From NCBI GenBank assembly GCA_016219025.1, contig JACRCM010000026.1:1-43594 (forward strand): a DNA stretch of 43,594 bases, given 5' to 3'. A program made the translations under genes and the position numbers. Numbering within the stretch: the first letter of the stretch is position 1; each line of letters begins with the position of its first letter. The stretch is from Deltaproteobacteria bacterium. Lineage in GTDB: Bacteria; Desulfobacterota; GWC2-55-46. Of the stretch, positions 11,842-42,039 are shown one piece after another. A model generated the notes under the pieces. It was not told where the DNA came from and ran no database searches. It was given only the letters and a program-made list of their open reading frames with translations.

Positions 11842-13498
11842 ATTGCTGGCCTCAAGGCGCGCCCGCGCCGTCATACCCGTTGTCCTGCTCGCCGTCTTTG
11901 TGTCTCAGGCGTCTTACATCGCATGGGAGAAGTCGAGCACGTGGGACGAGCCGACGCATCTGATGAGCGGGTATGCGCGGTTGATGGGCGGGGACACCCG
12001 CGCCTCCATGCACCACCCGGCGCTCGGTCAGGAGATGATCGCCGCGCCTGCCGCCGTGTTCCTTGCGCTCGCATTCGACAAGACGATAAACCCGTCGTAT
12101 CCGAATGGCCGCTTCTTCGTCTCGTCGGTCAAGTTCCTCTACGAAAACAGGGTTGATGCAAGGACGCTTCTCTTCCTCGCCCGTCTGCCCAATATAATCC
12201 TCGGCGCGATTCTCGGTCTGTATGTGTTTCTATGGTCTGAGAGCCTTTGGGGCGCGTCTGGCGCTTACCTTTCGCTCTTCTTCTATTCCCTGTCGCCGGA
12301 CGTGCTCGCGCACGCATCCCTCGCCACGACCGACCTAAGCGCCGCCGCGTTCATCTTCATCGCCGCGTTTTATCTCTACAGGATTTACGACCGTGGCGCA
12401 GACTCAGCCGGAGCGCTCGCCGCCGGGGTTGGCATCGGCCTGGCCCTCAGCGCAAAACACACTGCCGTCATACTCGCACCGTTCGTCTTAGTGACCTTCG
12501 CCATGAGGCTCAAAAAAGACGGGGCGCGGAAGACCGCCGTAGCCTTCCTTTATCTCTCGGCTGCGGCATACCTCGTTGTCTGGGCGGTCTATGGGTTCAG
12601 GTATCAGGCGTCGGTCGCGCCGCTTCCTTGGGACGGGTTTCCTCCGTCGGCCTTAAAGGCTATATTCAGCCTCTTGAAAGAGATAAAATTTTTGCCGGAG
12701 GCGCACCTCTACAGTCTTGCGGGCACGTTCGCGGCAGGCGCATCGGGCGGCGCTGGATTCCTCATGGGCGGATATTCAGGCACGGGCTGGTGGTATTATT
12801 TCATCACCGCATTTCTGATAAAGACACCGGTGCCCACGATATTCCTTGTCATCGCGGCGCTTCTCTATGGCTGCCGTTCATCAAATTCGCGGGGCAGGGC
12901 GTTCGCGCTCTTTTTGCCCGTGGCCGTGATATTCCTGCTCGCGTCCCTCCAGAAGGTCAACATCGGCATACGCCATATCCTGCCCGTGTATCCGTTCCTC
13001 TTCACGCTCATCGGTTTCGTGCCCTCGATTAAGACCGGGAGCGTCCGGCCCGCACGGCATGTATTTGGCGCGGCCTGCGTCTGGTATCTGTATGCCGCGG
13101 TATCCATCTTTCCGCACGACCTCGCATACTTCAACGAGTTCATCGGCGGGCCTGCCAACGGCTATAAGTATCTTGTGGACTCAAACCTCGATTGGGGCCA
13201 GGACCTGCGGGGACTCAAGGAATTCATGGACGCGAACGGCATCAAAAACATCAAACTCGCCTACTTCGGCCTTGGAGACCCGCGCTACTACGGGATAGAC
13301 TACGACTACATGCCGAGCTACGTGATACCGGAGCCGGGAAACGTCAGGGCAGATATCGTTCTCAAGGGCTGGTTCGCCGTGAGCGCCACGATGCTACAGG
13401 GCGTCTACCTTCCACAACGGGATTTTTATAGGCCCTTCCGGGAGACCGAGCCTGTGGCTATGATAGGATATTCGATATTCGTATACCGGTTCGATTGA
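11831..13498 (+). CDS. GT39/PMT-like membrane glycosyltransferase
   Basis: TM-rich; N-terminal 'STWDEPTHLMSGYARLM' acidic loop, 'NIGIRHILPVYPFLF', 'NLDWGQDLRGLKEF...'; start ATG 11831 overlaps the upstream gene by 11 nt. Confidence 0.78.
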   Translation: MLNELLASRRARAVIPVVLLAVFVSQASYIAWEKSSTWDEPTHLMSGYARLMGGDTRASMHHPALGQEMIAAPAAVFLALAFDKTINPSYPNGRFFVSSVKFLYENRVDARTLLFLARLPNIILGAILGLYVFLWSESLWGASGAYLSLFFYSLSPDVLAHASLATTDLSAAAFIFIAAFYLYRIYDRGADSAGALAAGVGIGLALSAKHTAVILAPFVLVTFAMRLKKDGARKTAVAFLYLSAAAYLVVWAVYGFRYQASVAPLPWDGFPPSALKAIFSLLKEIKFLPEAHLYSLAGTFAAGASGGAGFLMGGYSGTGWWYYFITAFLIKTPVPTIFLVIAALLYGCRSSNSRGRAFALFLPVAVIFLLASLQKVNIGIRHILPVYPFLFTLIGFVPSIKTGSVRPARHVFGAACVWYLYAAVSIFPHDLAYFNEFIGGPANGYKYLVDSNLDWGQDLRGLKEFMDANGIKNIKLAYFGLGDPRYYGIDYDYMPSYVIPEPGNVRADIVLKGWFAVSATMLQGVYLPQRDFYRPFRETEPVAMIGYSIFVYRFD

Positions 13499-13738
13499 TG
13501 GTTTTTTATAGGCCCTTCCGGGAGACCGAGCCTGTGGCTACGATAGGATATTCGATCTTCGTATACCGGTTCGATTGATGGTTTTTTATAGGCCCTTCCG
13601 GGAGACCGAGCCTGTGGCTATGATAGGATATTCGATCTTCGTATACCGGTTCGATTGATGGTTTTTTATAGGCCCTTCCGGGAGACCGAGCCTGTGGCTA
13701 CGATAGGATATTCGATCTTCGTATACCGGTTCGATTGA
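13421..13738 (+). repeat. Four-copy 80-bp tandem repeat; copy 1 is the 3' end of the upstream CDS
   Basis: Anchor ggcccttccg recurs at 13431, 13511, 13591, 13671 (period 80); copies differ only at the start of copy 1 and at two internal sites (T/C and A/C). Confidence 0.97.
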
Positions 13739-13751
13739 CCGCCTGAGCGCC

Positions 13752-13779
13752 TTGACGTCCGTTAAGGTTGCAATATAAT
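13752..13779 (+). promoter_or_regulatory. Candidate sigma70 promoter (TTGACG-N16-TATAAT)
   Basis: TTGACG 13752-13757, TATAAT 13774-13779, directly after the tandem repeat and before the ORF at 13847. Confidence 0.65.
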
Positions 13780-13846: not shown

Positions 13847-14077
13847 ATGGGGTACTTTCTCGCCATAGGGATAATCGCGCTCGTCTCAGGCGTGATGTTC
13901 ATCTTCGCGCCGTCCGCCGTCCGCTCGCTTAACGAGAGATCGACCCGCATCATCTCTTCCTTCGACGCGGTCACGCTCTCCTACAGGATAGGCGTAGGCG
14001 TCGTGCTCGTAATAGCGAGCGGGGTCTTCTTTTACGCGGCCTACTTCATGAAGCGGCACGGGTTTTATCTCTTTTAA
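13847..14077 (+). CDS. Small two-TM membrane protein
   Basis: 76 aa, AGGAGGG ribosome-binding site upstream; two hydrophobic segments. Confidence 0.7.
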   Translation: MGYFLAIGIIALVSGVMFIFAPSAVRSLNERSTRIISSFDAVTLSYRIGVGVVLVIASGVFFYAAYFMKRHGFYLF

Positions 14078-30984: not shown

Positions 30985-31066
30985 ACGGTTATCAGTTATC
31001 CGTTATTAGTTATCTGGAAAGGATAATGATAACAATCGGCAAGCGCGCTCCTCGTTCCCAAGCTCT

Positions 31067-31204
31067 GAGGCTGTGTCGCAATGCAAAAATCGGAGAAAAA
31101 ACCTCTTTTTTCGGAGGGGTTTTACCCCTAAAATTCAAAAGAAATCGCTTATAGGGCATCGTGGAGAGCCTGTTTTTTTACAAATACAATTGCGACACAG
31201 CCTC
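31067..31204. mobile_element. MITE-like element 2, about 138 bp
   Basis: Perfect 16-bp terminal inverted repeats GAGGCTGTGTCGCAAT at 31067-31082 and ATTGCGACACAGCCTC at 31189-31204, flanked by TTCCCAAGC/GCTTGGGAA arms. Confidence 0.8.
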
Positions 31205-31305
31205 TCCGGCTTGGGAACGGCGTTGTCGGGAAGCTTCGCTTCCAGTGTCAAGGCCACGCGGCTTCGATGGCCGCGCAATCGTTGGGTCAGTGCCTGCCCC
31301 TGAAC

Positions 31306-31327
31306 ATAGAGCTGCTTTGTAAATCGT
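31306..31327. repeat. Dispersed intergenic motif, copy 3 (ATAGAGCTGCTTTGTAAATCGT)
   Basis: Matches 7005 and 28319 copies. Confidence 0.7.
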
Positions 31328-31386
31328 TAAGGCGGGGGCTGAGCTAACCCAACCTGCCCGGCTGGTAACCGGCAACCGGCAACCGA

Positions 31387-39372: not shown

Positions 39373-42039
39373 ATGCCATATAACGCCCAACTCGCGCAAT
39401 CCCTCAAGTCCGCGCCATCGGTCAAGGACTTCGTCAGGGCCTACCTCTCGGAGGGAGAGGCGCAGTTGCGTTCGCGCCACCTTGCCGAAAAAAAAGGGGC
39501 GCAGATATGCGCCTCCTACGCCGCGCTCATCGATGAGCTTTTAAAGGCGCTCTTTGCGGCGAAGGGCGCGGACGCCGGGTGCGCCCTCGCCGGGTGCGCC
39601 CTCGCCGGGTGCGCCCTCGTCGCGTTGGGCGGCTACGGCCGGTCGGAGCTTAACATAAAGAGCGACGTGGACCTCATGCTCCTCTACGGCAGGAAGATAA
39701 CGCCGGAGATGGAGAGGCTCACGCAGGAGATGCTCTACGTCCTGTGGGACACGGGACTCGACGTGGGCTTCAGCATACGCTCGCTGGAGGAATCCCTCGC
39801 GCTCGCCAAGGAAGACCTCAAGACCCGCACCGCGCTTCTGGACGCGCGGTTCCTGTCCGGCGACGCGGCGCTCTACGACGCGCTCGTCAAGAAGACGGCC
39901 TCAAGGCTTTTTGAAGGAAGGGCGGCCTCGCGGTTCATCGACGCCAAGATAGAAGAGACGAGGGAGAGGCACGTGAGGTTCGGCGGCTCGGTCTACATAC
40001 TCGAACCCAACATAAAGGAAGGGGAGGGGGGGCTGAGGGATTTTCATACCGCCGTCTGGATAGTGAAGGCGCGGCACGGGCAAAGGGGCATAGAGACCGC
40101 CCTTGAGGACGGCATCGTTACCAGGGGAGAATGGGCTGAACTCACCGCGTCGGTGGATTTTCTCCTCTGGGTCAGGAACGAGCTCCACTTCGCGGTGAAA
40201 CGCAAGACCGACCAGATGACCTTCGACCATCAGGAGAGGATCGCCGGGGTGCTAGGGCACGCCAGCACCGAACGGATGCTCGCGGTCGAGGCCTTCATGC
40301 AGCGGTATTACCGCCACGCCTCGGCGGTGAACGGGCTGTCCGGCCTCATGCAGTCGAGATGCCTGCACAAGAACGCAGGGAAGGGACTCTTCTGGCCCAG
40401 GAAGAAGGTGCGGATAGACAGATGCTACGCCGTCGTGGACAACATGCTTACGGTGCGCGATAAGGACGCCTTCGCTTTGAGCGAGGACGCGGCCATAAAC
40501 GCATTCGTCTACTCGCAGGCGTTCGGCGTGGAGTTGAATCAGGAGACGCGCGACCTCGTGCTCCGCTATCCCGTTGACGGGGGAACCTCATGGCGGAGTT
40601 CTCCGGTGATTTCGGCGGCCTTTTTGAAGATACTCAAGGGCGCGAACGTCTACAAGACACTCTCCGAGATGCACAGGCTCAAGTTTCTTGAGCGCTACAT
40701 CCCGGAGTTCGGCGAGATAACGTGCAGGGTGCAGCACGACCTCTACCACGTCTATACGGTTGACGCGCACACGCTCTTCGCGGTGCGGGAACTGGAACGC
40801 CTCCGGGGCGAATACAAGGCGAATTTTTCGCTCCTCTCCACGCTCTTCGGCGAGACGCCCAACCCCGAAGTACTGACGCTCGCCGTGCTCCTGCACGACA
40901 TAGGCAAGGCCGCGGGCAAGGGACACGCCGAGCACGGCGCCGAGATCGCGCGCGGGATATGCAAAAGACTCAATCTCCCTGAGGACAGCGCGAGTCTTGT
41001 AAGGTTTCTCGTAAGGAACCACCTCTGCCTCGCCGACACCGCGCAATACCGCGACATTCACGACGAAAAGCTGGTCATAGAGTTCGCCAAAAAGGTCGGC
41101 GACATCGAACGGCTCAACCTCCTCTACCTGCTTACGTTCGCCGACGTGCGCGCGGTAGGCCCGGACGTATGGAGCCAATGGAAAGGGGCGCTCTTCCAGG
41201 AACTCTACTTCAAGGCGCTGACGGTGATAGAGAGGGGCACCTTCGAGGCCGAGGACGTGGAGGCGCGCCTGAGGGCGATACGCGACAAGGTGCTGGCCCT
41301 CATCAAGCAGGACGGGACGGGCGCTGGGGCTGTGGAGGAATACTTCGGGCTCCTTCCGCAGAGATATTTCCTCACGACCTCGCCGGACTTCGTAGCAGAT
41401 CATATAAGGATACTGCGCGGCCTCGGCACGCGGCCATACGTGTTCACGACGCGCCAGGACAGGGGGAGGGAATACACCGAGTTCGTCGTATGCACGCACG
41501 ACACGCACGGCCTCTTCTCGATGATAACCGGCGTCATGTCCGCCAACGCGGTAAACATACTCGGCGCGCAGATAAACACCCTGAAAAACGGACTCGTCCT
41601 CGACGTGCTTCAGGTCACGTCGCACATCGGTGAGCTTATCGTTGACGAGGCCAAACTCAAAAAGATCGAACGCGACCTCGCCGACGTGCTTACCGGCAAG
41701 GTAAAGGTCGCCTCTCTCGCCGGCAGGCGCAAGGCGTCGATACTGGACAGGAAGGCGAAGCCGAGGGTAGCCACGAGGGTGGAGACGGACAACGAGGTAT
41801 CCGACGCATACACGGTGCTGGACATCCACGCCCAGAACCGGATCGGCCTCCTCTACGACATTACGAGCGCGATAACGCGGCTCGGCCTCTACATCCACGT
41901 CTCGAAGATAGCGACCAAGGGCGACGAGGCGGCGGACATATTCTACGTCAAGGACATCTTCGGGCAGAAGGTATACTATACGGAAAGGCTCCGCGAGATA
42001 AGCAGCTCCATCACGAAGGCGATTGACGAAAAGGCGTAG
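39373..42039 (+). CDS. glnD: [Protein-PII] uridylyltransferase/uridylyl-removing enzyme GlnD
   Basis: GGYGRSELNIKSDVDLMLLY nucleotidyltransferase motif, HD motif LLHDIGKAAGKGHAEHG, two C-terminal ACT domains. Confidence 0.94.
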   Translation: MPYNAQLAQSLKSAPSVKDFVRAYLSEGEAQLRSRHLAEKKGAQICASYAALIDELLKALFAAKGADAGCALAGCALAGCALVALGGYGRSELNIKSDVDLMLLYGRKITPEMERLTQEMLYVLWDTGLDVGFSIRSLEESLALAKEDLKTRTALLDARFLSGDAALYDALVKKTASRLFEGRAASRFIDAKIEETRERHVRFGGSVYILEPNIKEGEGGLRDFHTAVWIVKARHGQRGIETALEDGIVTRGEWAELTASVDFLLWVRNELHFAVKRKTDQMTFDHQERIAGVLGHASTERMLAVEAFMQRYYRHASAVNGLSGLMQSRCLHKNAGKGLFWPRKKVRIDRCYAVVDNMLTVRDKDAFALSEDAAINAFVYSQAFGVELNQETRDLVLRYPVDGGTSWRSSPVISAAFLKILKGANVYKTLSEMHRLKFLERYIPEFGEITCRVQHDLYHVYTVDAHTLFAVRELERLRGEYKANFSLLSTLFGETPNPEVLTLAVLLHDIGKAAGKGHAEHGAEIARGICKRLNLPEDSASLVRFLVRNHLCLADTAQYRDIHDEKLVIEFAKKVGDIERLNLLYLLTFADVRAVGPDVWSQWKGALFQELYFKALTVIERGTFEAEDVEARLRAIRDKVLALIKQDGTGAGAVEEYFGLLPQRYFLTTSPDFVADHIRILRGLGTRPYVFTTRQDRGREYTEFVVCTHDTHGLFSMITGVMSANAVNILGAQINTLKNGLVLDVLQVTSHIGELIVDEAKLKKIERDLADVLTGKVKVASLAGRRKASILDRKAKPRVATRVETDNEVSDAYTVLDIHAQNRIGLLYDITSAITRLGLYIHVSKIATKGDEAADIFYVKDIFGQKVYYTERLREISSSITKAIDEKA
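39574..39618 (+). repeat. 15-bp x 3 in-frame tandem repeat in glnD (gccgggtgcgccctc)
   Basis: Three exact units, encoding AGCAL-AGCAL-AGCAL. Confidence 0.95.

Follow-up and report, generated by a model that had tools for sequence, protein, structure and literature searches.

Structure of the tandem array

We have analysed a 43,594-nucleotide stretch of DNA (the window; contig JACRCM010000026.1 of assembly GCA_016219025.1) from a Deltaproteobacteria bacterium, in which the gene of a PMT_2/GT39-like glycosyltransferase is followed by tandem copies of its own last 80 bp. These copies form a chain of small open reading frames (mini-ORFs), each of which starts on the stop codon of the frame before it, and we refer to such a chain as a relay (Table 1). 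An initial annotation of the window had described a four-unit 80-bp array derived from the C-terminus of the glycosyltransferase, with the overlap TGATG at 13496, 13576 and 13656. The program TRF recovered this array (98% matches and 0% indels between the 80-bp copies), and all three overlaps are present. The mini-ORF peptides have the form MVFYRPFRETEPVA(T/M)IGYSIFVYRFD. Because the unit holds a stop codon and an overlapping start and has a length of 2 mod 3, every added copy automatically yields a small ORF that starts on the stop before it. Only three mini-ORFs result from the four units, since unit 1 is the C-terminus of the gene itself and unit 4 ends in TGAC.

The units are told apart by very few positions, which agree with the initial annotation. 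A variable site at 13461, 13541, 13621 and 13701 reads T, C, T, C across units 1 to 4, and the sole other internal difference is ATA at 13477 against ATC in the later units. The earlier proposal of a 160-bp dimer duplication is supported by the correspondence of unit 1 to unit 3 and of unit 2 to unit 4, and the same dimer pattern (A,B,A,B) recurs in an unrelated array of this genome, on contig L095. At the left edge, homology reaches 13420 with one mismatch (GGATTTTT versus GGTTTTTT). This edge (TTGAC/GGATTTTT to TTGAT/GGTTTTTT) fits what would have been left by an exact 80-bp duplication from 13420 and two later changes at the junction. The copies are nearly identical and lie head to tail, with the native gene end as unit 1, which points to tandem duplication in situ.

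Orthologues of the glycosyltransferase among the relatives showed 48-57% identity, and most share the same end, ...YSIF(V/I)Y(R/K)F. The 80-bp array is absent from these orthologues. The search in relatives that the initial annotation had suggested found the unit as an array in none of 40 relatives; two weak matches are partial single matches and not arrays. Accordingly, conservation of the array was rejected, and the view that the duplication is recent is upheld by this absence together with the 98% identity of the copies. In one relative, of another species (contigs L027 and L007), the orthologous glycosyltransferase gene carries at its 3' end an unrelated array of 91 bp x 3.9 (L027:6619-6973), which forms no relay. 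Minisatellites were much scarcer in samples from two relatives than in the genome studied here: one contained none in 400 kb, and the other contained them at two places in 343 kb, one of these being the 91-bp array.

An assembly artefact might also produce such an array, given that the genome is a 170-contig draft and that many of its arrays lie at contig ends. We consider this origin highly improbable. Exact overlaps shared by contig ends peak at 141 bp, a length that suggests a k-mer assembler with a k of 141. The longest exact repeat within the window array is 101 bp. Every 141-mer in it is therefore unique, which makes collapse or mis-joining of the copies unlikely, and the variant sites distinguish the units. 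Longer alleles of the array, built from additional dimers, would lie beyond the 141-bp limit and may exist. Contig-end overlaps of 399 bp were ignored, as they come from short self-matching contigs and are probably runs of N. Long self-matching stretches, probably N-masked, occur in contigs L045, L083, L084, L158, L168 and L175 (all below 3 kb).

The last TGA of the array is followed by CCGCC, then by a promoter-like site and finally by an ORF that has an AGGAGG of its own. The promoter-like site is the TTGACG-N16-TATAAT that the initial annotation had placed behind the array. Coupling of the last mini-ORF to a downstream gene is lacking in the window and was found on contigs L052, L157 and L078. 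No terminator-like site was found at the window array, and the folding of its unit RNA is not unusual (z = 0.19). On these two results, RNA structure or a terminator was rejected as the role of the array.

Table 1. Features of the window array and of the relay arrays elsewhere in the same genome (aa, amino acids)
Feature	Location	Strand	Remarks
PMT_2/GT39-like glycosyltransferase gene, 554 aa	11834..13498	+	Pfam PF13231, E 2e-8; 3' end of the gene is unit 1
Unit 1, native C-terminal codons of the gene and TGA stop	13420..13498	+	C-terminus conserved in about 20 orthologues
Entire tandem array, period 80, 4.0 copies	13423..13738	+	TRF score 611
Mini-ORF 1, 26 aa, MVFYRPFRETEPVATIGYSIFVYRFD	13498..13578	+	Start overlaps glycosyltransferase stop, TGATG at 13496
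Mini-ORF 2, 26 aa	13578..13658	+	Variable site M, not T; TGATG at 13576
Mini-ORF 3, 26 aa	13658..13738	+	TGATG at 13656; terminal TGAC without a further overlapping ATG
Putative sigma-70-like promoter, TTGACG-N16-TATAAT	13752..13779	+	Consensus match only, 11/12 consensus positions
76-aa ORF with its own AGGAGG upstream	13847..14077	+	From the sequence and ORF list; no Pfam match; uncoupled to the array
mraY, three 25-aa ORFs (TGATG, 77 bp), then GTGA into murD	L052:17709-19999	-	Core cell-wall operon junction
ResB-like gene, 28-aa ORFs (ATGA, 83 bp), then ATGA into Na/Ca exchanger-like gene	L054:1-265 and L157:1-231
cheW, 5-nt gap, 27-aa ORFs (ATGA, 80 bp), then ATGA into cheR	L163:1-121 and L078:1-153		Split by the assembly
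Rhodanese-domain gene, four 27-aa ORFs (ATGA, 80 bp), then 23-aa ORF	L095		No coupled gene

Relay arrays elsewhere in the genome

A survey of 1.08 Mb of the same genome, about half of it, with TRF and a simple hexamer gene caller returned 40 tandem arrays with a period of at least 30, of which many lie at contig ends and 26 are located at least partly outside predicted genes. These arrays were tested for chains of ORFs joined by an overlapping stop and start. Besides the window, the same relay was found at four loci unrelated in sequence, with hand-over to a real gene at three of them, where the adjoining genes may depend on coupled translation (Table 1; gene families at these loci were assigned with Pfam). 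The contig pairs L054/L157 and L163/L078 are probably one locus each, judging from the array that the members of each pair share; apart from these contig-end pairs, the relay arrays showed no sequence relation to one another.

The mini-ORFs at the resB locus carry a head like that of the exchanger (MTIEI versus MTIDI) and a tail like that of ResB. In a relative of the same genus (G001, contig L183), the resB-like gene and the exchanger gene overlap directly as ATGA with no array between them. This combination of a composite mini-ORF with a bare ATGA in the relative fits tandem duplication across an existing coupled junction. The mini-ORF between cheW and cheR starts with the head of cheR, and no source was found for its remainder. 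On L095, the unit includes a short element of about 21-25 nt that is dispersed in the genome.

These loci also bear on the possibility of a mobile element, that is, a repeat scattered through the genome by insertion at stop/start overlaps, in the manner of the mycobacterial interspersed repetitive units (MIRUs). MIRU units of 77 bp and 53 bp, both 2 mod 3, lie between senX3 and regX3 (PMC4213456), and their periods resemble those found here. However, the window unit has no second location in the genome and is the C-terminus of its own host gene, and the relay arrays share no common sequence save within the two contig-end pairs. An element of this kind is therefore scarcely credible as the source of the window array, and a dispersed or mobile element was ruled out by the single locus of the unit and its lack of relation to the other relay arrays.

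A further 56-bp array precedes rplC (L153:1-280) and contains ORFs of 16-18 aa linked by TAATG. It was excluded from the relay count for the hairpin-like repeat in its unit; this unit and the L178 array share the hairpin-like motif CCCGCGTTAAAAAAGCGGG. Within the window, the intergenic region 31020-31360 contains matches to short repeat units elsewhere in the genome, with inverted copies of the GCGACACAGCCTC type near 31052 and 31192, and positions 31333-31358 match the 42-bp unit of L086. A perfect 15-bp x 3.1 tandem repeat, with a period divisible by three, lies inside a long ORF at 39573-39619.

Period and reading frame

An ORF that begins at the start codon of one copy meets the stop of the next copy in frame only at a period of 2 mod 3, so that a chain linked by ATGA or TGATG needs such a period. 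The five relay arrays have periods of 77, 83, 80, 80 and 80, all 2 mod 3 (5/5; chance about 0.004). When tandem duplications were simulated at random over the gene ends of this genome, an ATG relay arose in 3.1% of cases, none of them at periods of 0 or 1 mod 3; the figure was 6.3% if all start codons were admitted. At gene ends already overlapping an ATG, the simulated frequency of the ATG relay was 25-28%. Among the arrays at gene 3' ends, four of seven form an ATG relay, against the expected 3.1% (P 3e-5); with the window, which prompted the survey, left out, three of six do so (P 6e-4).

Pooled over the arrays, the differences between units comprise 5 synonymous and 15 non-synonymous changes (expected synonymous fraction 0.276), with no stop and no indel. 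It seems that the frame, and not the peptide, is the maintained feature of the units. This result bears on the relay of reinitiating ribosomes that the initial annotation had put forward. The relay finds support as an architecture, recurring at four unrelated loci and leading to a real gene at three, and finds none as a maker of useful free C-terminal peptides. Repeated reinitiation could yield such peptides, or it could carry ribosomes to the end of the transcript and so protect or regulate the mRNA. In favour of such a role, the window has all three mini-ORFs intact, the genome contains further arrays with the same architecture, and termination-reinitiation is known to be possible where a stop and a start overlap (PMC6728339). 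Nevertheless, we consider such a function of the window array unlikely: the peptide changes fit neutrality, the unit RNA folds in an ordinary way, no coupled gene follows, the array is absent from the orthologues, and no Shine-Dalgarno-like stretch was seen upstream of the window mini-ORF starts. Reinitiation at overlapping gene pairs is often aided by such a motif, and its removal strongly cut reinitiation in four of five E. coli pairs (PMC6728339).

Origin and persistence of the arrays

We consider it likely that tandem duplication in situ is frequent in this genome, that arrays at coupled junctions persist only if the hand-over of ribosomes is kept, and that the window array itself is neutral. 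In the proposed course of events, the 3'-terminal 80 bp of the glycosyltransferase gene would have been tandemly duplicated in situ, and a 160-bp dimer would then have been amplified into a minisatellite, one of many that the genome would generate. Where a duplication falls across a stop/start overlap within an operon, a terminating ribosome would be passed unit by unit to the next gene only if the period is 2 mod 3. The arrays that preserve coupling, between mraY and murD, between resB and the exchanger gene and between cheW and cheR, would be the ones that survive. The sequence data show the repeat, the architecture common to unrelated loci, the ancestral overlap at one of them, the period rule and the neutrality of the peptide changes. 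From these we infer both that ribosomes reinitiate at the overlaps and that selection on coupling has shaped the set of arrays. On the other hand, the window array lies before an independent promoter-like site and has no coupled recipient, and it is therefore most likely a neutral by-product, tolerated because no further gene of its transcription unit lies downstream. Its relay is probably a by-product too, with a function being unlikely, and is possibly translated at a low level.

Several points weigh against this explanation. The argument from coupling does not cover the window array itself, as no coupled gene follows it, and the L095 array ends in a 23-aa ORF and not in a gene. The relay arrays are few (five) and come from about half of the genome, the gene calls were made with a simple hexamer caller, and gene starts are approximate. 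Also, the overlapping ATG is missing from the last copy both at L052 and in the window, and the overlap was thus possibly created at the repeat junction and not inherited.

With a lower but appreciable probability, the window array may instead be pure coincidence, that is, a neutral minisatellite unconnected to the other arrays, its whole chain being due to one chance event that combined a period of 2 mod 3 with a start overlapping a stop. One such event accounts for all three links, the share of random duplications that form a relay is 3.1% with ATG and 6.3% when all start codons are allowed, and the window has no recipient gene. What speaks against coincidence is that four other unrelated arrays of the same genome have the same layout. 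For the window alone, coincidence could hold, and there it overlaps with the explanation by frequent duplication and selected coupling.

Going beyond frequent duplication with selected coupling, this lineage might repeatedly fix tandem duplications across stop/start overlaps as relay arrays, as in-situ equivalents of MIRUs without mobility, with copy number tuning expression. We regard this proposal as speculative and rather doubtful. If it is true, copy number would be the count of reinitiation steps between two operon genes, for example those of MraY and MurD, and would provide heritable and reversible tuning of the ratio in which the two are expressed. Since each added unit would represent one more reinitiation event, relay arrays in mraY-murD and similar housekeeping operons could serve as natural counters of repeated reinitiation. 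Our results also suggest that, as a simple rule, a repeat spanning a stop/start overlap can grow in a coupled operon without breaking the coupling if its period is 2 mod 3, and that MIRU-like structures can arise by in-situ duplication, with no need for a mobile element.

Comparison with known systems

The relay arrays use the same overlap motifs as termination-reinitiation at ATGA and TGATG. Ordinary cases of this kind join two genes, whereas the relay arrays interpose 1 to 4 intact mini-ORFs on each contig, a number that may be higher where a contig ends inside the array. Like bacterial minisatellites and variable-number tandem repeats, the window array consists of head-to-tail copies, has a higher-order dimer pattern and is confined to one species among those examined; it differs from them in that its unit has a stop codon and makes a chain of linked ORFs.

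In the open-licence literature, we found no earlier description of such arrays except that of MIRU, in which a small ORF is coupled to the downstream gene via a stop/start overlap (PMC12548453). On the one hand, the arrays resemble MIRUs in having tandem units of about 50-100 bp between genes (80 bp in the window and 77-83 bp at the other relay loci), an internal ORF that overlaps the neighbouring ORFs at both its start and its stop codon, as at the TGATG sites of the window, and periods of 2 mod 3. On the other hand, MIRUs are one dispersed and apparently mobile family, whereas each relay array has its own sequence, and the resB, mraY, rhodanese and window arrays derive at least partly from the adjoining genes. 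The window array, in addition, hands over to no gene. Accordingly, it is better termed an in-situ minisatellite with a MIRU-like translational architecture.
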